Shown: positions 6,013 through 60,580 of the stretch, one piece after another
Layout: every line of letters begins with the position of its first letter
Position numbering within the stretch: position 1 is the first letter of the stretch
Position numbers and translations under genes: made by a program
The notes under the pieces: model-generated
The model's database searches: none
What the model saw: the letters and a program-made list of their open reading frames with translations, nothing else
What the model was told of the DNA's origin: nothing
DNA from: Mytilus galloprovincialis
Taxonomy: Eukaryota > Mollusca > Bivalvia > Mytilida > Mytilidae
Direction of reading: 5' to 3'
NCBI RefSeq assembly: GCF_965363235.1
Contig: NC_134842.1
Coordinates: 7,963,112-8,027,111, forward strand
Length of the DNA: 64,000 bases

Positions 6013-9000
6013 GTAAGTATTTACATGTAACTTAAAGTGACAGCAGTTTCAATGAATTTCAGGAACGATTTATTAAAGCTTACCCTTGACAATGCTTGAT
6101 CAGGAAATACTATTTACATTAAAATTATTTTTCTTTTCTTTTTCCAGAGTGGACTATGATTAACTAATTAACATAGTTTGTTTTTTATACGACTAAAATA
6201 TTTTCCGGCCGTATAATGGTGTCATCGTTGTAACCGTCCGATATTTGATTTCCAGATAATAAATTGCAAATAAGTAAATGGAATTCTTTGACATTTAACA
6301 GTACGGTGTCATACCGCAATAGAAAAGTTCGCTATGAAATTGTACAACGAGATTTCATATTGCAACAGGAAAGTATGAATTGATTCATGATATCAAAATA
6401 ATCATTTATATGACTCAATCATACGATATTTACGATAGATATTTAGCTTATCTGCAAAAATTCCATCATCATGCCTTGTATATTCTGTACTGTCATACAA
6501 CTCTAGATTCCACTAACGAGGAAAGGTAAGATTAGGCCACCGAAAACTCAATTATTAATTCATTTTATGTGACCAAGTGTAATTTTATTACAGGTTTTTT
6601 TCAGAACATACATTATGTATTATTACGTCTTTACAAGTACCTAGATAGTTATCAAAGGTACCAAGATTATAATGTAATACGTCAGACGCGCGTGTCGTCT
6701 ACATAAGACTCATCAGTGACAATCAGGTCAAAATAGTTGTAAAGCCAAACAAGTACAAAGTTGAAGAGCATTGAGGACCAAAAATTCTAAAAAGTTGTGT
6801 CAAATACGACTAAGGCAATCTATTTCTAGGATAAGAAAATCCTTAGTTTTTCGAAAAAATTAAGTTTTGACACCGAGAAATTTATGAAAATGACAATTTA
6901 ATTGATATTCATGTCAACACCGAATTGCCGACTACTGGGCTAGAACCTGTATCCGTCTGTTACCGATACATCATTAGTGGTGCTATAAACCAAATATTTT
7001 TTCAACATAAGTATTCTATCGTAATTCGTTTTGTGACAATGAGCACTTTTTCTGTATTTCAAATTAATTTGTTAGTACATGACTGTATATTTGAAATTCC
7101 ACAAGAAATTCAAGTTAGTTACAAATGTAAACGTTCACGAAACCTAAACACTTCTTAATGGAAATTGTATCAATCGTTTTTCCCGGTCTAGATTGTGAAT
7201 GCCTGTAAAATATATGAGTTCGAATGCACAGATGGAAGTTGTATCAATTCAACATTGAAATGCAATTACGATTTTGACTGTCCAGATCGCCACGATGAGG
7301 TTAATTGTGAGTATATTGTACATGTAAAGGAAACAATTATAGGCCATTGTTATATTATAGTTGTTTCTGTGTGTGCTTCATTGTAGTGTTTCTGTTGTGC
7401 CGTTGTTCTCCTCTTATATTTGATGTGTTTCCTTCAGTTTTAGATTGTAACCAGGATTTTCTTTTTCTCAATCGATTTATGAATTTCGAACAGCGATATA
7501 CTACTGTTCCCTTATTTATAGGTTACAACAATTCATTTATGTTCAAATGTCATGTCTTTTTTATTAACAACAAACAGATTAAAATCAAGTTTATCGAAAT
7601 GGTAATCATCTCAAGTTTTTATTATTTTCCTCTCAATCTGCCAATGTATCTATGCTTTCTAATTGTATTTCACGTATTGAATTTGAAAAAAAGGAGTTTG
7701 TTATTTATGCAAAGGGACGAGAAAATATTTCAAAAAATCTCTGTTCACTGTTCATTGGATTGCATGTTTTGTAGATTTTTTGATAAAAAGGGATGGCTTT
7801 TGTTGACATTATAAAACAATTTACTTGTTTACTGCAACAATTTATTTGAATAAAACATAGGTTAGAAGTGTTTTAAAATCAAGATGATATGTGCCAAATA
7901 AATGATTTATATTTATCAATTAAATCGAACAAGGAAACAGTCTTACAATGGTTTAATGTTCACGTTTATTATTATTATTTACCTATGTTATATAGGTACA
8001 TATATTCAGCCATGCCCTGAAGGAAACTATAGATGTGCAACAGGCGAATGTGTTAACAATAAAACCGAATGTCCAATAATGACATCATTAGTATCGTTAT
8101 CTTCTACCATTGCTGTCGATATTCAATCTTCCTTTGTGTCACCAACTACTAGTTCAAAGATGATATCAGCCACCAGTCATCCAAATACGTATACATTACT
8201 GAGTTCTGGTTTATCGTCAACAGTAATACATCATTTACAGTCATCATCTGCTTTTATATCATCAACAATTTCAATAGAACCAACAACAATGCATCATTCA
8301 TATCAGACCTCTTTTATACAAACAACACCAACGTATCCCGTAAAGACACCTAGGTCTCCAACAGACGATCAAAAACCCGATGAGGAAAGTAATAAGTTAT
8401 TATGTAAGTTCTTTATTCTCTTGATAACGAACAGAAACATGGAATTTTAAATGAATCAAAGTAAGGGTTGAAAATTGTTACCTCCTCAATTTAAGTATTT
8501 CAAATTTCAGAATAATGCAAAGATTTGTTCTAACATGTTTAAACCATCGATATTTTATATAAACTTTTGTAATTGTACATATTGATAGTTTCTTAAGAAA
8601 ATGATTTAATCAAACTGAAGCCTTATTTGTTATTTTTTATATGATGTTATGTAAATACGTATAAAAAATATATAACTGTAAATTTTTTCTTAAATAAAAT
8701 GGCCGTATGTATGGCGTCAGAATAAGAATTGTAATCACTATTCATACAAGCTCAGGCCCCACAGAAACAACCTCTGATATACAGGTTTGTAAAAATAAAT
8801 CTGAAGCGTTTAAAGTTTGCATGTTTATAGAGTTTGTATCGGAGAGCAATTAAATCGTTAAGAAGATGTCTCCACCAAATATACAAACTAGTATATATTT
8901 GTTTAGGGGCCAGCTGAAGGACGCCTCTGGGTGCGAGAATTTCTCGTTGCATTGAAGACCTGTTGATGACCTTCTGTTGTTGTCTGCTCTATGGTCGGGT

Positions 9001-12000
9001 TGTTGTCACTTTGGCACATTCCCCATTTCCATTCTCAATTTAAAATATAAGATGTGTGGCGTACAATTCGAGACATTATAATATTGTTCAAAAGCAAAAC
9101 GTCATATTCTAGATTATTTTTTGATTTTTTATTGATATTTTTATAATAAATATTTTGCTTTTCAGATTTATTATTTCTCTTAGTTTTATTGGTTCCATTG
9201 ATTGTCTTGGTCGGATGGAGATATAGAATGAACATGAGGTAAATAAATTGATCTCATAAGATATTTTCCTTTGGTTTTGCCATATTATTAACCAGTAGTA
9301 CCGGAATAATTCGTATATATTGTTTTTGGAAGTTAAAATATTAAACAGACCTTTAAGTTTAGCACATGAAATTATCAAAACAAAATAATATACATGTATT
9401 AGACAATAACACAAAAAGAGCGGGTATATACCAAAAGCAATACAATAATTAAGAAAAGATTAGTCATAATAAAAAGTAGTAAAAGGAGTTCTCAGAACAA
9501 TATAAATGAAATATTCAAAAGAGAAAAATGATGAAAATAAAAACAATAATTACACAACCTATAACCAGGTAAATTAAGTGAAAATCAAAAGCATTAACTC
9601 AGCCGAATTCAAAATATAGATGAAAAACCACAGCCGATTTGCACAACCTAATTTTAAAAAAGAAAAACAATAGGCATTTTAGATACGTTACATTGTGAAT
9701 ATATACAGTCGCCTTCTTAACATATATATACATGATATACTAGCAAAAGGTATTAGATGTGCATCATAAAAAAAACTGCTGAAAGTGCATCATATAAAAA
9801 CTGCAGAAAGTTAAATTTAATGTTCTAAGTTATAATGCGTCAAATATTTTAATATTGATTTTTTGGACAGTATTTGGGATATTAATCTCCCTCCGATGAT
9901 AATAAAATTTAGGAAAACCCATATTAACAACAAAAACCAATTGTATTGTATGTTTTCTATCAAAATGAAACTCTTTAATTGCAGTGTGGAATACACAAAT
10001 ACCCATTTTGTTAAAACCAGAGTGTTGTAACGTAACTGCACTTTAATAACTAACATCACTTGTGTATATAGATTTAATGATTATACAACTCGTCTAAACA
10101 TCAACCCAGCAATGTTAGATCTGTAAATTTGCTTTCGCAAATTTTAGGTTCTTCCCTCGCCGGGATTCGAACCCATGCTACTGTGATATCGTGACACCAA
10201 ATCGCCTGCACTGCAGCCGTCCCGCTAGACCACACGACCACCTGGGCTCTCAAAAAAAAGAGCTTTCGCTGGCCATGTGTTACCTTTCCATGTCAGTTTT
10301 AATCTAGCGGCGTACTACAGTACATGATATATAAGGCATGAAGATGTTATTGTTACAGATCAGTTAAATTATCTATAGTAAAGGATCCTACAAATTAATG
10401 TAAGATACAGTCACAGAAAATAATTATATTCATAAGTACGTCTGAGTCAATGGCAACCCTACAACAGAGGTATCCATCGGATCGCCATCAATGATGGTGA
10501 TACATGGCTGTGTACATAATGTATATACAACTCGTCTAAACATCAACCCAACAATGTTAGATCTGTAAATTTGCTTTCGCAAATTTTTGGTTCTTCCCTC
10601 GCCGGGATTCGAACATATGCTACTGTGATATCGTGACACCAAATCGCCTGCACTGCAGCCGTCCCGCTAGACCACACGACCACCTGGGCTCTAAAAAAAA
10701 GAGCTTTCGCTGGCCATGTGTTACCTTTCCACGTCAGTTTTAATCTAGCGGCGTACTACAGTACATGATATATAAGGCATGAAGATGTTATTGTTACAGA
10801 TCAGCTAAATTATCTATAGTAAAGGATCCTACAAATTAATGTAAGATACAGTCACAGAAAATAATTATATTCATAAGTACGTCTGAGTCAATGACAACCC
10901 TACAACAGAGGTATCCATCGGATCGCCATCAATGATGGTGATACATGGCTGTGTACATAATGTATATACAACTCGTCTAAACATCAACCCAACAATGTTA
11001 GATCTGTAAATTTGCTTTCGCAAATTTTTGGTTCTTCCCTCGCCGGGATTCGAACCCATGCTACTGTGATATCGTGACACCAAATCGCCTGCACTGCAGC
11101 CGTCCCGCTAGACCACACGACCACCTGGGCTCTCAAAAAATAAGAGCTTTCGCTGGCCATGTGTTACCTTTCCACGTCAGTTTTAATCTAGCGGCGTACT
11201 ACAGTACATGATATATAAGGCATGAAGATGTTATTGTTACATATCAGCTAAATTATCTATAGTAAAGGATCCTACAAATTAATGTAAGATACAGTCATAG
11301 AAAATAATTATATTCATAAGTACGTCTGAGTCAGTGACAACCCTACAACAGATGTATCCATCGGATCGCCATCAATGATGGTGATACATGGCTGTGTACA
11401 TAATGTATATTCAACTCGTCTAAACATCAACCCAACAATGTTAGATCTGTAAATTTGCTTTCGCAAATTTTTGGTTCTTCCCTCGCCGGGATTCGAACAT
11501 ATGCTACTGTGATATCGTGACACCAAATCGCCTGCACTGCAGCCGTCCCGCTAGACCACACGACCACCTGGGCTCTCAAAAAAAAGAGCTTTCGCTGGCC
11601 ATGTGTTACCTTTCCACGTCAGTTTTAATCTAGCGGCGTACTACAGTACATGATATATAAGCCATGAAGATGTTATTGTTACAGATCAGCTAAATTATCT
11701 ATAGTAAAGGATCCTACAAATTAATGTAAGATACAGTCACAGAAAATAATTATATTCATAAGTACGTCTGAGTCAATGACAACCCTACAACAGAGGTATC
11801 CATCGGATCGCCATCAATGATGGTGATACATGGCTGTGTACATAATGTATGTACAACTCGTCTAAACATCAACCCAACAATGTTAGATCTGTAAATTTGC
11901 TTTCGCAAATTTTTGGTTTTTCCCTCGCCGGGATTCGAACCCATGCTACTGTGATATCGTGACACCAAATCGCCTGCACTGCAGCCGTCCCGCTAGACCA

Positions 12001-15000
12001 CACGACCACCTGGGCTCTCAAAAAATAAGAGCTTTCGCTGGCCATGTGTTACCTTTCCACGTCAGTTTTAATCTAGCGGCGTACTACAGTACATGATATA
12101 TTAGGCATGAAGATGTTATTGTTACATATCAGCTAAATTATCTATAGTAAAGGATCCTACAAATTAATGTAAGATACAGTCATAGAAAATAATTATATTC
12201 ATAAGTACGTCTGAGTCAGTGACAACCCTACAACAGATGTATCCATCGTATCGCCATCAATGATGGTGATACATGGCTGTGTACATAATGTATATACAAC
12301 TCGTCTAAACATTAACCCAACAATTTTAGATCTGTAAATTTGCTTTCGCAAATTTTTGGTTCTTCCCTCGCCGGGATTCGAACCCATGCTACTGTGATAT
12401 CGTGACACCAAATCGCCTGCACTGCAGCCGTCCCGCTAGACCACACGACCACCTGGGCTCTCAAAAAATAAGAGCTTTCGCTGGCCATGTGTTACCTTTC
12501 CACGTCAGTTTTAATCTAGCGGCGTACTACAGTACATGATATATAAGGCATGAAGATGTTATTGTTACATATCAGCTAAATTATCTATAGTAAAGGATCC
12601 TACAAATTAATGTAAGATACAGTCATAGAAAATAATTATATTCATAAGTACGTCTGAGTCAGTGACAACCCTACAACAGATGTATCCATCGGATCGCCAT
12701 CAATGATGGTGATACATGGCTGTGTACATAATGTATATTCAACTCGTCTAAACATCAACCCAACAATGTTAGATCTGTAGATTTGCTTTCGCAAATTTTT
12801 GGTTCTTCCCTCGCCGGGATTCGAACATATGCTACTGTGATATCGTGACACCAAATCGCCTGCACTGCAGCCGTCCCGCTAGACCACACGACCACCTGGG
12901 CTCTCAAAAAAAAGAGCTTTCGCTGGCCATGTGTTACCTTTCCACGTCAGTTTTAATCTAGCGGCGTACTACAGTACATGATATATAAGGCATGAAGATG
13001 TTATTGTTACAGATCAGCTAAATTATCTATAGTAAAGGATCCTACAAATTAATGTAAGATACAGTCACAGAAAATAATTATATTCATAAGTACGTCTGAG
13101 TCAATGACAACCCTACAACAGAGGTATCCATCGGATCGCCATCAATGATGGTGATACATGGCTGTGTACATAATGTATGTACAACTCGTCTAAACATCAA
13201 CCCAACAATATTAGATCTGTAAATTTGCTTTCGCAAATTTTTGGTTTTTCCCTCGCCGGGATTCGAACCCATGCTACTGTGATATCGTGACACCAAATCG
13301 CCTGCACTGCAGCCGTCCCGCTAGACCACACGACCACCTGGGCTCTCAAAAAATAAGAGCTTTCGCTGGCCATGTGTTACCTTTCCACGTCAGTTTTAAT
13401 CTAGCGGCGTACTACAGTACATGATATATAAGGCATGAAGATGTTATTGTTACATATCAGCTAAATTATCTATAGTAAAGGATCCTACAAATTAATGTAA
13501 GATACAGTCATAGAAAATAATTATATTCATAAGTACGTCTGAGTCAGTGACAACCCTACAACAGATGTATCCATCGTATCGCCATCAATGATGGTGATAC
13601 ATGGCTGTGTACATAATGTATATACAACTCGTCTAAACATTAACCCAACAATGTTAGATCTGTAAATTTGCTTTCGCAAATTTTTGGTTCTTCCCTCGCC
13701 GGGATTCGAACCCATGCTACTGTGATATCGTGAAACCAAATCGCCTGCACTGCAGCCGTCTAGATTATATATCTTTTTTTTCCTTCATATTTTAACCTGA
13801 TAGTAATTTTTCTTTTTTGGTATCTTAGAGTCCTTAATTAGCGTATCAAGCATTTTCCAAGCATGACCTTACATTTTGTTTATGTGAAGTTTAAATGTAA
13901 TTGAGCATGTAAAGATAAGTTTCAATCGAAACGGAAATAAAAAAGTAAAAAAAAAAACACACAAAATATTGTAATATAAAGAGATGTTCTGTATTAGAAC
14001 CAATATATTTTTACAAATGTATTTATCTTTTTTTGTCTAGAAGCATGATCTACAGAGTAACAAGGAGGGGGAATCATTACCATGATGCTTCGAGGAATAG
14101 GTATGCTGTATGATTCATTATTTTTTTTATAACGGATACCATTAAAATATCTTTATTTATGTTCTGAACAACTGTAAAACGTCCGTAGGGGATACGTATG
14201 TAATTTACCTTCCATGTTTTTTTTTTTTTTTTTTTGTATTGTGGTATCCATAATTAAACTGTATAATTGCCAGTGTGAAATATCTGTTGCATCTTTTAGA
14301 AATGCCTTTATTATCATCTGACAGTTTCATACTATGTCAATCAATACTGTTCTACCATGCCTTTTTTTTCTCCCAAAAATAATATCTTTATTGCACTTTT
14401 CTTTGCTGTTTTGACAAATTACTCAACCTACAGCAGTTGATTCCTTGTGAATTAGTCACTGGATAACCAGGGAATTTATTTAGTGAATTCATATCTATAG
14501 GTAGTTTGTTCTACCATATCAATCAATCAATATATACAGGCAAAGACAGAAGCATGACTTTGTTAATTCTTATTCTTCATTAATTTGTTTGGCTTAATTC
14601 TATTTTAACTGCTGACTTAACGTGAAACGTGATTTATCAAAAGATTGAAATAGTTGTACAAAATACTGGAGGCCGTTAGATGTCAGACAGATATTTCATT
14701 AGATCGACCAAATTATGATGGTGTCCGTAAAACTTTCGAAGGTTGAATTCGACTTTATCACTGAGAACATTAGTTCAATAGAGAACTTTTAAACAACAAT
14801 CCTATATCATGGAATTCATAATAGGAATAAAAACTCTTGAATTTCATATCACCTTTTGGAAATATATACCATACATGTATGCAGACGCTGCTGAAATGTT
14901 TCTACATAGAAATTGAATGATCACAGACGGAAACTGAACACATCTTTTTGTCGTAAAATGTGTTCTTGCAGTTTGTACGTAAATTGTCTTCAGTCAAAAA

Positions 15001-23320: not shown

Positions 23321-23977
23321 GTTAGTACTTAATGTAGAAATACGTAAAATATTTTTTTTTAAATACGCATTCCCGAAATTTTAAAATATTTAGAATGGTT
23401 AGACAAATTTGATCATACATTTTTACATGTATAAAAAGTAAAAAAAAAACAAAAATACCACATCAAACGTCTGGCATGATCCTGACATGGTACAGTCATA
23501 TTCTTAGGTTTAAAAAAAAAAAAGTGGATTAAATCTGGTTTTATAACTAGCTAAATATCATACTGGTGTGACAGTTGCATAAACCCCAAGTATTCTATAA
23601 AGTGGTTAACTTCCTTATTTAGCACAATCTGGAAACATAAAGCCTCTACTTATTAAATCAAAACTTAAATCTGCTGTATAGTTTTTAATTGTAAAAAAAG
23701 AGTTACCAAAGCATACATACACATGAAGTTTGATTGCTCCCCTCTTTATGTCTCTGCAACATAAATTACAATAATTGATAATAGAATTACCAAAGCATGC
23801 ATACACCTGAGTTTTGATTGCTCCCCTTTTTAAATATGCTACATAGTTTACAATTGATAAAAAGAGTTACCAAAGCATACATACACATGAATTATGATTG
23901 CTCCCCTCTTTAATAGTTATCAAAGTTCCTTAAGTCTGATAGATAGTTTACAATTGATAAATAGAGTTACCAAAGCA

Positions 23978-24182
23978 TAGTACTATTTTTTTTATATAAA
24001 TAAAGCCGCTACTTTTCTCGTTGTCATTGTCATATCGGGGCCTTTTATAGCTGACTATGCGGTATGGGCTTTTCTCATTGTTAAAGGTCGTACGGTGACC
24101 TATAGTTGTTAACGTCTGTGTCATTATGGTCTCTTGTTGACAGTTGTCTCATTGGCAATCATACCACATCTTCTTTTTTATA
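23978..24182 (+). repeat. M1 repeat inserted in the minisatellite
   Basis: Breaks a minisatellite unit between 'accaaagcata' and 'tacacatgag'. It contains 'gccttttatagctgactatg', 'aaaggtcgtacggtgacc' and the M1 end GTCTCATTGGCAATCATACC. This is the fullest M1 copy in the window. Confidence 0.75.
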
Positions 24183-24520
24183 TACACATGAGTTTTTTTG
24201 CTTCCCTCTTCAAGTCTGCTACATAGTTTATAATTAATAAATAGAGTTACCAAAGCATATATACACATGGGTTTTGATAGCTTCCCTCTTTAAGTCTGCT
24301 ACATAGTTTATAATTGATAAATACCAAATGTAGAGTTACCAAAGCATATATACACATGAGTTTTAATTGCTCCCCTCTTTAAGTCTGCTACATAGTTTAC
24401 AATTGATAAATAGAGTTACCAAAGCATATATACACATGGGTTTTGATAGCTTCCCTCTTTAAGTCTGCTACATAGTTTTATAATTGATAAATACCAAATG
24501 TAGAGTTACCAAAGCATATA

Positions 24521-25007
24521 TCGTCGCTGTTATGCAAAAACCTCGTATCTAAGGTTTTGATAATTTTACACCAGGCAGTAAAAACTGAAATCTTTTTATC
24601 GATTATTTAGAATTAAATATGTATGTTCCACTGTATGCAAAAATATCTGACCTTCTAACCAATCAATTACCAAGACGAGCAAAAATTTCTGCACCTATAT
24701 ATTGTAATTTCAAAGCTTTTCATTATTTCTAAGCTATATTAGAACCTAAAATTGATAAAACTGTACCTGTTATAATGTCAGCTGCCGTGACATGTGTTTT
24801 TCTTTTGAGATACGATATTTTCGCACAACAAAATGTGTCATCAATCCGACTACACTTTTTCGTCACATGTCAGAATTCGGGTTAATGATTGGTTAGAAGA
24901 TCAGATATTTTCGCATACAGTGGAAGATACATATTTAAATTCTAATTAATCGATAAAAAGATTTCCGCAAAAAATTGAGATACGAGATTTTTGCATAACA
25001 GCGACGA
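24521..25007. mobile_element. Foldback MITE, 487 bp, with TA target duplication
   Basis: The ends TCGTCGCTGTTATGCAAAAA and their complement are flanked by TA on each side. Removing the element plus one TA restores the minisatellite phrase 'gcatatatactcat' exactly, as in the intact unit near 25500. The arms run about 150 bp inward (shared 'tctttttatcgatta', 'ttccactgtatgc', 'cttctaaccaatca'). No coding sequence; the class is unassigned, and TA duplication suits a Tc1/mariner-type mobiliser. Confidence 0.9.
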
Positions 25008-26519
25008 TATACTCATAAATTCTGATTGCTCCCCTCTTTAATAGTTATCAAAGGTCTTTAAGTCTGCTACATAGTTTACAATTGATAAAAAGAGTTACCA
25101 AAGCATACATTCAAATGAGTTTTGATTGCTCCCCTCTTTATGTCTGCTTCATAGTTTACAATTGATAAATAGAGTTACCAAAGCATACATAAACATGAGT
25201 TTTAATTGCTCCCCTCTTAAGTTCTGCTACATAATATACAATTGATAAATAGAGATTCCAAAGCATACATACACATGAGTTTTAATTGCTCCCCTCTCTA
25301 AGTCTGTGACATAGTTTACAATTGATAAGTAGAGTTACCAAAGCATACAAACACATGGGTTTTGATGCTCACCTCTATAAGTCTGCTTCATAGTTTATAA
25401 TTGATAAATAGAGTTATAAAAGCATACATACACATGAGTTTTGATTGCTCCCCTTTTAAGTCTGCTTCATTGTTTATAATTGATAAATAGAGTTACCAAA
25501 GCATATATACTCATGAATTTTAATTGCTCCCCTCTTTAATAGTTATCAAAGGTCTTTAAGTCTGCTACATAGTTTACAATTGATAAATAGAGTTACCAAA
25601 GCATACATTCAAATTAGTTTTGATTGCTCCCCTCTTTAAGTCTGCTTCATAGTTTATAATTGATAAATAGAGTTAACAAAGCCTACATACACATGAGTTT
25701 TAATTGCTCCCCTCTTAAGTTCTGCTACATAATATACAATTGATAAATAGAGATTCCAAAGCATACATACACATGAGTTATAATTGCTCCCCTCTCTAAG
25801 TCTGTGACATAGTTTACAATTGATAAATAGAGTTACCAAAGCATACAAACACGTGGGTTTTGATGCTCACCTCTATAAGTCTGCTTCATAGTTAATAATT
25901 GATAAATAGAGTTACCAAAGCATACATTCACATGAGTTTTGATTGCTCCCCTCTTTAAATCTGCTTCATAGTTTATAATTGATTAATAGAGTTACCAAAG
26001 CATACATACACATTAGTTTTGATTGCTCCCCTCTTAAGTTCTGCTACATAATATACAATTGATAAATAGAAATTCGTAAGCATACATACACATGAGTTAT
26101 AATTGCTCCCCTCTCTAAGTCTGCTGTATAGTTTATAATAGATAAATAGAGTTAACAAAGCATACATAAACATGACTTTTATTTGCTCCCTTCGTTGTAT
26201 TTTCTCTCTTTCGTACAATTTGCTATGAAATTATACTAGGACGCCCATATGCATATTTACCGAGGGAGTGTCCGTATTGATAAGTGTATCATAAAGGTGG
26301 AGTTTTAAGAAAACTAATGATTGCATTACATGTATAACTATAACGCTAATAATCTTTATTATTCTTTTAACAATTTGAAATTTAAAAAAAAGCAATTAAG
26401 ATATATTTCAAATGTCAAATTTAATTACCTACAAATTGAATTCACTTCAAAAATACCATTTTCAAACCAATAACTTGTTGGTTATGATTTTCTTGTTTTT
26501 ATTTTTTATTTTTATATAG

Positions 26520-36703: not shown

Positions 36704-37460
36704 GACCGTGTATATTTACGCCAAACATTTTTCATTTTAAGCTGAAAAAATTGATTTTGCAAAATACTCTACAAATTTAAAAGTTTATTGGTTTGATAAA
36801 TGTATCAAAAAACTGTTGAATTCACTTCTGAAAAATCATTTTCGTTATGAGATTAGAAATTTGTAATTTTCATGATATTACAATATTTAATTTCACGAGG
36901 ATAATATAAAAAGTAATGATAAGTTTGTCTTTAAAAGATTTCATCTTATCAACAGTTTGAATAAATTAAAACATTTGAATTTGATTGCTTTAGATAAAAA
37001 CAAATTTCAATCTCCTTCCTAAGAACAAAATATTGAAATTGCTTACCTTAAGCACTTTTCAATTTGCCTTAAAAAATTGAAAAATGAAAAATGCTCCAAC
37101 GTGGAGCATTTTTCAATTTGTCTTTCAAAATTGAAAAATGAAAAATGCTCCAACTTCGAGCATTTTTCAATTTGCCATGAAATATTGAACAATGAAAAAT
37201 GCCCCATATTGGTTGAATTTTCATTTTTTAGAAAATTTTCTCAAAATGAAAATGTTTTTGTGTGTAGCATTTTTCAATTTTTGTAATCGTTTGACAAAAT
37301 GAAAAATGTTCTAAAAAGGTTAAAGAAATTGATATAAAAGATATTGAAAAATAGATAATCAAATAATTTTTTCATTCATTGTTAACACTTTAGAAATTTT
37401 GTTTTTATGCTTTAAATATAATACACATGTGTGTATGTGTGAACCCGTAGATGCACATTT
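36704..37460 (+). repeat. Element with 54-bp palindromic tandem repeats, left copy
   Basis: The outer end is 'ccgtgtatatttacgccaaa'. Near 37077-37230 are three units of 54 bp, each an imperfect hairpin of AAAAATGCTCC and GGAGCATTTTT type. An inverted relative with the same outer end and the same 54-bp units lies at 47560-48335. An open frame crosses the repeats here, but in the other copy the same frame has a stop in every unit, so it is not called coding. Confidence 0.75.
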
Positions 37461-47575: not shown

Positions 47576-48335
47576 TCTTCAAGATATATTGCGATTAAAA
47601 CTAGAAAAAAGAAAACGGAAATAGTAAAACATTTAATAAAAAGTGTCAACAATTTAAACATTTAAACGCCTATTTTGAAACAAATTACATTTTCGTTCAT
47701 ATTATTACACATTTAAATAATGAACATTTTTCAAATTTGAATATTGCACAGTAAAATGAAACATGAAAAATTGGAGCATTTTTCATTTTTCCATATCAAA
47801 CGTCAAATTGAAAAATGCTCCACGTTGGAGTATTTTTCATTTTTCAATATTTGAAGTCAAATTGAAAAAATGCTCCATGCTTGAGCATTTTTAATTTTTC
47901 AATATTTTAAGTCAAATTGAAAAATGCTCCACGTTAGAGCATTTTTCATTTTTCAATATTGTAAACTAAATTGAAAAATGCTTAAGGTCAGTATTTTCAA
48001 TATTTGCTTTTAAGAATGAAATTGAAATCTGGTTTGTTTTCTAAAGCAAACAAATCCAAATGTTTAAATATATTTAAACTTTTGACAAAATAAAATCATT
48101 TTTAACACAAACTTATTGTTATTTGTTTCAATATCTTCGTAAAATCAAAAATACAATTCCATGAAAATAACAAATTTCAAATCTCATAGAGAAAATGTTT
48201 TTTCGAAAGTGATTTCAATAGATTTTTGTTACAATTTTCAAACCAACTACATTTAAAATTTGCAGAGCAATTTGAAAATTTATTTTTCATTTTAAAATGA
48301 TAAATGTTTGGCGTAAATGTACACGGACGGTTATT
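47576..48335 (-). repeat. Element with 54-bp palindromic repeats, right copy (inverted)
   Basis: Four 54-55-bp units near 47760-47990 pair GAAAAATGCTCC with GGAGCATTTTTC. The outer end, 'ggcgtaaatgtacacgg', is the complement of the left copy's end at 36704, and the region between also aligns in reverse. Confidence 0.75.

Positions 48336-54504: not shown

Positions 54505-54559
<55 letters not shown>
54505..54559. repeat. (TA)n microsatellite
   Basis: About 27 uninterrupted AT dinucleotides, directly abutting the start of a SINE-like unit; likely the expanded 3' tail of that minus-strand SINE. Confidence 0.9.
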
Positions 54560-54561
<2 letters not shown>

Positions 54562-55095
54562 ACTCGTCTAAACATCAACCCAACAATGTAAGATCTGTAA
54601 ATTTGCTTTCGCAAATTTTTTGTTCTTCCCTCGCCGGGATTCGAACCCATGCTACTGAGATATCGTGACACCAAATCGCCTGCACTGCAGCCGTCCCGCT
54701 AGACCACACGACCACCTGGGCTTCACAAAAATAAAGCTTCCGGTGGCCGTGTGTTACCTTTTCTCGTCAGTTTTAATCTAGCGGCGTACTACAGTACATG
54801 ATATATAAGGCATGGAGATGTTATTGTTACAGATCAGCTCAATTATCTATAGTAAAGGAACCTACAAATTAATGCAAGATACAGTCACAGAAAATAATTA
54901 TATTTATAAGTACGTCTGAGTCAGTGACAACTCTACAACAGATTTGTCCATCGGATCACCAGCAATGATGGTTATACATGTATGTGTACATAATGTATAT
55001 ACAACTCGTCTAAACATTAACCCAACAATGTTAGATCTGTAAATTTGCTTTCGCAAATTTTTTGTTCTTCCCTTGCCGGGATTCGAACCCATGCA
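54556..55095 (-). repeat. Dimer of the 443-bp tRNA-derived satellite unit inside the MULE
   Basis: Starts at the same base as the intronic array ('tacaactcgtctaaacatc'), contains one full head and spacer, and a second SINE-like unit that stops inside its tRNA-like head at 55095. Differences from the intronic units are scattered (for example GTGGCCGTG and 'cttccggtgg'), so it is an older, independent copy. A second B box at 55076-55090 is intact. Confidence 0.85.
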
Positions 55096-59429: not shown

Positions 59430-59938
59430 AAGGGGAGAAATGATGAGATTTTAACGGATCAAAGTGATATATAATGTAATATTAAAGAGTACTATAAAAA
59501 GTTATACTCGACGCACAGCCTGATAAAACATCAAGTGATCAATATATATTTGAGACAAAACTAGAGAATGAAATGGATGAAAATGATAAATCACTCTGCG
59601 ATGGGGATATTACATTAGAAGAATGCTCAGATGCTATTTATAAAATGAAACTTAATAAATCTCCTGGATTAGACGTTCTAACATTTGAATTTTATAGAAA
59701 ATTTTGGGATAAATTAAAGTTCATAGTAGTTAATATTCTTAATAGTGGATATAAAGATCAAACACTTACATATTCACAGCGTACAAGTGTATTAACGCTA
59801 TTATTTAAAAAAGGTGATCCATTGTCACTAACTAATTACCGTCCTATTTCTCTTTTAAATATAGACAGGCAACTTCTATCGTACGCTCAAGCACAACGAT
59901 TGAAAAAAATCTTATCAAAACTTGTTAAAGACCAAATA
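59430..59938 (+). mobile_element. LINE reverse-transcriptase fragment (L1/Tx1-like)
   Basis: Reads EILTDQSDI, a frame change, DGDITLEECSDAIYKMKLNK, SPGLDVLTFEFYRKFWDKL, SVLTLLFKKGDPLSLTNYR and PISLLNIDRQLLSYAQAQRL. These are the blocks before the catalytic YADD of non-LTR retrotransposons of the L1/Tx1 type. There is one stop and one frame change near 59470-59520. It ends at KLVKDQ, where the inverted composite begins; the catalytic block and 3' end are missing. Confidence 0.8.
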
Positions 59939-60035
59939 GTCCGGCGGCTACAAGCATATTTCAGACGAATTGTGCACATCTTCCTCAACTATTACTCTTT
60001 TATTTCAGATAGGGAGGCATTTGAAAAAAATGTCT

Positions 60036-60580
60036 CACTTCCGGTAAAATCCAAAATGGCGGACTTCATACTTAAATCAGCCCAATATCAAAGACTAGTA
60101 TTTGAAAAGGTGTTATTAGCATGGTACAACCATAATATTTGGTACAAATCTTTGTTTTGTACTACTTTTGGATATCTTATATTGTTTAGATGTCTGCAAA
60201 AATCCTACTTCCGGTAAATTCCAACATGGCGGACATTGTACTAAAATAAGCTTATTTTTTAGGGAGGGTAATTGAAATGTGTTTACACGTATTGCTACTA
60301 TCATTACATTGTGCAGGAACATTTCTTTGGTGCTTCTAATGGATACAATGTATAAAAAATCTGTCTTTAAGACCCCTACTTCCGGAAATATTCAAAATGG
60401 CGGACATAGAAATATCAATTCATTAATTAAATATTCAACTTTTTTTCAAAATGTAAAGAAAATGTTGTTTTTTGTGCTGGTCATTAATACTTTGGCTTTT
60501 AGTTATCCTCAAAACCTCTAATTCTATTCTGTTGTAAATGTTTAAATACAAAGTTGACACTTCCGGTAAAAAATATGGCG
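60036..60580 (+). promoter_or_regulatory. Array of ETS-like plus YY1-like motif pairs (left arm)
   Basis: ACTTCCGGT (ETS-type core, reverse ACCGGAAGT) is followed within about 7-12 bp by AAAATGGCGG-type (YY1-type) sequence four times: 60036/60053, 60206/60222, 60378/60394 and 60557/60570. The steps are about 170-180 bp. Three mirrored ETS-type sites lie in the right arm (63557, 63723, 63915), two with an adjacent CCGCCAT. Binding is inferred from vertebrate consensus sites only. Confidence 0.45.

Follow-up and report, generated by a model that had tools for sequence, protein, structure and literature searches.

In a 64-kb window of the Mytilus galloprovincialis genome (contig NC_134842.1, positions 7,963,112 to 8,027,111 of assembly GCF_965363235.1; "the window" is this whole stretch), one tandem array is built from a 441-bp unit that is probably a non-autonomous retroposon of the short interspersed element (SINE) type, mobilised by Penelope-like elements (PLEs). 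Judged from sequence comparison, each insertion would lay down a tandem array, and blocks of units would be duplicated later. The array occupies 10086..13760 on the minus strand, which we assigned as the sense strand from the promoter boxes discussed below, with its 3' end at 10086 and its 5'-truncated end at 13760. It consists of 8.3 head-to-tail units of 441-443 bp each, starting at 10086, 10528, 10969, 11412, 11854, 12297, 12740, 13182 and 13625; the leading unit, at 13625..13760 on the minus strand, is 5'-truncated and 136 bp long. TRF reports 10075-13760, 8.3 copies and 97% matches, so that the tandem array placed at about 10084-13760 by a first-pass annotation is borne out both by this program and by unit alignment. 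No reading frame in the array exceeds 100 amino acids.

Rather than a resident satellite, the 441-bp repeat is a retroposon: its copies are dispersed and 5'-truncated, and they favour particular 3' ends, which meet (TA)n. A genome search with one unit returned at least 209 matches; those listed are 97-100% identical and lie on 13 contigs. We read 38 stretches picked for high identity, two of them overlapping, and a further 20 copies at the first places of the exact 3'-end pattern on contig C1, a choice that in itself favours site A among these 20. Of the 98 non-edge pieces, drawn from 56 sources, 74 have their end at unit positions 439-441 (site A), 10 at a second site (site B) and 14 elsewhere. 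A TA run of at least 6 lies within the next 12 nt in 69 of the 74 site-A ends, and the (TA) run past the 3' end has a median of 20 nt, reaching at least 10 nt in 63 of them. The 5' end is variable among copies, with a TA run of at least 6 directly adjoining it in 28/74. Exact patterns occur genome-wide at 1164 site-A ends, 464 site-B ends and 2122 internal junctions, and the reversed-pattern controls of these end searches gave 0. Since internal unit junctions read TATATACATTATG, the long (TA)n is target or addition, not unit sequence.

Both 3' ends follow a short motif: AGAC, whose only two occurrences in the unit, at 85 and 432, precede the ends by 10 and 11 nt. The unit's longest alternating TA run (TTATATAT at 194) lacks an AGAC ahead of it and accounts for 1 exact genome end, as against 1164 and 464; TA homology alone is therefore not end-determining. 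At the other extremity, 17 of 74 5' ends fall inside a stable hairpin at 381-408 (p = 3e-6; counting one per locus, 10/54, p = 0.002), a pile-up as would result from reverse transcriptase stops.

The 3' ends point to PLEs as the source of the enzyme. The genome has at least 147 matches to the GIY-YIG domain, in frames of up to 911 amino acids. At L050, a PLE fragment stands tail-to-tail with an element array across one (TA)n, and the PLE terminates in CTTAGACACTTA(TA)n. A further four PLE 3' ends (L088, L089, L090 and L091) were retrieved blind, and three of them (L088, L089 and L090) are directly followed by a TA run of at least 13 bp; as a control, such a run is found in 20 of 1270 sliding 500-bp stretches of the window. 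The fourth, L091, and its relative L090 part ways past a short TATATA; 32 bp further, L091 has (TA)n and then an inverted 441-bp element. Using five PLE 3' regions as BLAST queries against 60 sources, we found a PLE 3' end at the array boundary in seven (L008, L037, L039, L043, L050, L057 and L083), L050 having also supplied a query. About 117 bp of TA separates PLE end and array at the L008 boundary. At L043 almost no TA run separates the PLE end from the truncated element joined to it; template switching would produce such a junction, and an insertion there is possible too. A further PLE match at this locus is internal, not at the boundary.

Comparison of six PLE ends placed AGAC at -9 in three and at -6 in one, with none in the other two. 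Because P50 and the L057 copy are related, as are P89 and the L039 copy, and P90 and P91, this amounts to AGAC in two of four PLE lineages. The 441-bp element and some resident PLEs thus have a 3' end and a target in common, with AGAC in those two lineages. Exact PLE ends of the P50 type number 71 in the genome, two of them joined tail-to-tail to a site-A end. Orientation is alike as well: 19 of 23 neighbouring GIY-YIG pairs within 8 kb are minus-plus, a head-to-head arrangement provided that the domain is C-terminal, the position it has in L050, and the element arrays L032, L054 and L060 are likewise head-to-head.

Two junctions involving these sequences have features of their own. CCGATGAAGC...GCGAAATA, a sequence within the PLE end at L050:1358-1390 and in its inverted copy near 565-600, looks by eye like a minimal hammerhead core; Rfam gives no match there up to E 1. 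At L039:2109-2182 (C5:41555188-41558625), about 73 bp of telomere-type (CCCTAA)n lie between two head-to-head element arms, and three consecutive exact (CCCTAA) copies occur nowhere else in the 353 kb of sequence examined (overlaps included). It is conceivable that telomerase or a PLE enzyme sealed this junction.

The unit contains exact matches to the consensus A and B boxes of an RNA polymerase III (Pol III) promoter: TGGTCTAGCGG at position 295 and GGTTCGAATCCC at position 354. By these strings, it carries a putative internal Pol III promoter of the kind that defines a SINE. The first-pass annotation had called the repeat tRNA-derived; beyond the exact boxes this derivation is not established, as ARAGORN finds 0 tRNA genes (relaxed settings give weak calls only) and Rfam no tRNA match up to E 10. 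A hammerhead in the unit was likewise considered and rejected: neither strand contains the CTGANGA core, and no Rfam ribozyme matches up to E 10 in 9900-13900.

How arrays form was approached through 171 units that align at 420 positions or more and fall into 45 groups drawn from 39 sources; shorter units were dropped, and ten positions around the T run were masked. Four of the 17 groups with at least three units (L035, L045, L057 and L061) carry six array-specific variants, one present in 5/6 units and the others in all, for which the chance is 1e-7 to 1e-14 on the assumption that units are drawn independently from the family. When pairwise differences are taken relative to twice the distance to the array majority sequence, L035, L036, L037, L038, L061 and L065 have a near-star ratio of 0.93-1.0 (L037 and L065 are one array), and in L036 8 of 13 units show no difference at the positions compared. 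Such star-like arrays fit many copies of one template that were laid down together and then aged. They may also stem from unequal exchange in a rapid burst, or from a multimeric transcript of a homogeneous source array.

Later exchange is probable in the window array itself, for which the first-pass annotation had proposed a trimeric 1328-bp period. The blocks at 10969..12296 (units 3-5) and 12297..13624 (units 6-8), both on the minus strand, are 1328 bp each and differ by 6 mismatches and no gap. Pairs at lag 3 within units 3-8 show 2, 2 and 2 differences; the seven neighbouring pairs of units 1-8 have 6-11 mismatches plus 0-2 gap positions, so that neighbours do differ more than partners three apart, as that annotation had stated. 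Beyond the two blocks the pattern fails. Units 1 and 2 do not keep the register (lag-3 differences of 9, and of 9 plus 2 gaps), some lag-2 pairs are similarly close (2, 4 and 5 mismatches), and when the order of the eight units is permuted, the lag-3 minimum mean of 5.0 against 7.6 overall has p = 0.26. Read in the sense direction, the eight full units follow the order C A B C A B A A' (type labels of our own), the last two being out of register.

On these grounds, the window trimer is one three-unit duplication, with at most a partial third copy, and the description as an alpha-satellite-like higher-order repeat is too strong for a period that is partial. The differences between units suggest a dimer duplication (differences of 3-5) and then a three-unit duplication (2 differences per unit). 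At most variable sites of the array, none of 162 units from other loci carries the window's variant, and the trimer is probably younger than the array and a product of unequal exchange. The proposed exchange by blocks fits these observations; growth by trimers through rolling circles is not the best reading, as copying of a monomer template at insertion would better fit several star-like arrays. The unit types are not wholly private, since the two-base marker of type A occurs six times genome-wide, three of them in the window array.

Block periods recur elsewhere in the family. An order-permutation test was applied to eight arrays including the window's, each p being uncorrected for the eight tests. 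Lag 5 stands out in L054 (p = 0.002), lag 12 in L037 with L065 (p = 0.0008) and lag 8 in L062 (p = 0.010), that is, periods of 5, 8 and 12 in three of the eight; the same permutation detects no block period in L061 (p = 0.63), L038 (0.32), L036 (0.35) or L045 (0.78). In an older family array, at C1:27752817-27758073, five exact unit junctions lie 1304-1307 bp apart, which makes its period trimeric, at about 1305 bp. One such period, read in L086 (1401 bp), comprises 441 + 441 + 425 bp; identity to the family unit is 93% for its full units and 90% for the shortened one.

We propose the following route. The A and B boxes would drive Pol III transcription of the unit, yielding a template RNA that is presumably circular or made of joined units. 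The reverse transcriptase of a PLE, the putative enzyme, would prime where a (TA)n close to AGAC is nicked; it may run through several unit lengths before stopping, leaving a 5'-truncated tandem array in a single event. In aged arrays, unequal exchange would later duplicate blocks of units, the window trimer being one such block. A more specific form of this proposal, which we offer tentatively, is that the element is a SINE-like parasite of PLEs that multiplies via ribozyme-free circular RNA, with the PLE reverse transcriptase, a relative of telomerase, laying whole arrays at each insertion.

Several observations count against this route. Two of the four PLE lineages (P88, and P90 with P91) have no AGAC at the end; the 3'-end comparison was confined to PLE ends; and a common preference for (TA)n could alone bring PLE and element ends together. 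Most groups (13/17) have no array-specific majority variant under a 75% rule, and differences within arrays are 5.9 against 6.9 between arrays overall. Star ratios are lower in L045 and L057 (0.90 each), L054 (0.87), L062 (0.85), L034 (0.78) and the window array (0.76). The inverted arms of L054 share aged variants, so that this palindrome may be a secondary rearrangement. Arrays of 24 units would need high processivity or later growth. Two further measures fall short of proof: 5' ends at the presumed Pol III start (8/54, p = 0.06) are not significantly enriched, and target-site duplications in 61 copies average 1.64 against 1.95 for shuffled flanks, with 377 of 500 shuffles reaching the observed value, though (TA)n flanks hide such duplications. 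Single good ones are present at L006 (at least 13 bp) and at the window array (7 bp).

The alternative that survives best, although we consider it unlikely, is an ordinary SINE moved by a long interspersed element (LINE), with later growth of its arrays through unequal crossing-over, which is how SINE-derived satellites usually arise. A truncated 5' end together with a fixed 3' end is general to target-primed retroposition, and the duplicated blocks, of 3, 5, 8 and 12 units, are evidence that exchange happens; moreover, SINE-derived satellites are described in squamates (PMC10702118). Set against this are the AGAC-(TA)n rule common to the element and two PLE lineages here, in a comparison confined to PLE ends, the arrays L036 and L038, which show little hierarchy and no lag effect, and the arrangement of a truncated copy with a further copy in tandem, along with inverted copies, which is a described PLE structure (PMC8969392). 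Considerably less probable is a DNA route, in which rolling-circle extrachromosomal circles are captured at (TA)n breaks by microhomology: it would account for the tandem arrangement, for junctions at (TA)n and for founder variants specific to an array, but one end of the element is nearly fixed and the other variable, and we rejected microhomology capture on the count of a single end at the unit's longest TA run. Least probable is a retrozyme proper, with circles made by a self-cleaving ribozyme of the unit's own, for although the repeats of mussel retrozymes, about 350-390 bp long, are reported to yield circular RNA (PMC7229834) and the genome holds hammerheads (at least 37 matches, 29 of them over the cut-off), the unit has neither the core nor the Rfam match noted above. 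One of those hammerhead loci, L087, shows no direct repeat in 901 bp.

Outside the array, the window contains a second, separate insertion of the 441-bp element, 1.2 units at 54560..55094 on the minus strand. Its 3' end adjoins a 55-bp AT run at 54505..54559 (no strand assigned), the longest of four alternating TA runs of at least 10 bp in the window. At 6429-6556 on the plus strand, a 77% match to unit positions 146-273 is perhaps an old or related element. The first-pass annotation put the array in a gene intron, which would be a putative setting; none of the three window open reading frames tested has a Pfam match at E 0.01; an open frame at 59573-60217 looks by eye like a fragment of a LINE reverse transcriptase, and Pfam gives no match to it at that threshold. 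Other repeats are several arrays of 80 bp at 23665-26190, with longer periods of about 160, 319 and 498 bp (TRF), and 54-bp tandem repeats at 37051-37206 and 47774-47982, whose unit is by eye nearly palindromic.

If the PLE route is correct, dispersed satellites of this kind would be products of retrotransposition, and the AGAC rule would stem from a signal in the template for PLE priming. The two 3' ends of each unit, with a built-in negative control in the same unit, point to PLEs and to a short template signal, and suggest a route by which satellites may spread as ready-made arrays.

Among known systems, alpha-satellite higher-order repeats resemble the window array in that blocks of n units are more alike than neighbouring units; the array differs in having two block copies and not an array-wide period. 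SINE-derived satellites are closer in content. Those of squamates are described with di- and trimeric patterns in a snake and some other species (PMC10702118), and the limpet satellite PcH-sat with a Nin-SINE segment (PMC11121367). They too are tandem arrays of SINE-like sequence, but these sources place them in subtelomeric or pericentromeric positions, whereas the 441-bp arrays are dispersed and have retroposon ends. With SINEs of the tRNA type the element shares exact A and B boxes, dispersed short copies and a variable 5' end. It differs from them in not being recognised as a tRNA by ARAGORN or Rfam, in its frequent tandem insertion, and in a 3' end that is internal to the unit, which continues past it in arrays.

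Metazoan non-LTR (long terminal repeat) retrozymes, those of Mytilus among them, are described as using a circular RNA template (PMC7229834, PMC7761336), a likeness that is conjectural on the side of the 441-bp element. The review describes them as lacking promoters, and their animal repeats as having no motif that reveals an autonomous partner (PMC7761336). In contrast, the 441-bp unit has A and B boxes and no hammerhead in the searches made, and a partner enzyme can be proposed from its 3' ends. Because the hammerhead test failed, we do not class it as a retrozyme, despite a similar way of working. PLEs are reported to be 5'-truncated, with tandem partial copies and inverted copies (PMC8969392), and the element is likewise 5'-truncated, tandem and found in inverted copies. 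With PLEs of this genome it further shares a 3' end that meets (TA)n, and with two of the four lineages the AGAC as well; it differs from PLEs in having A and B boxes and no long reading frame. The titles and abstract openings searched describe neither a PLE-mobilised SINE nor this repeat. From its sequence features, we file the 441-bp element as a putative PLE-dependent, tandem-inserting SINE-like retroposon.

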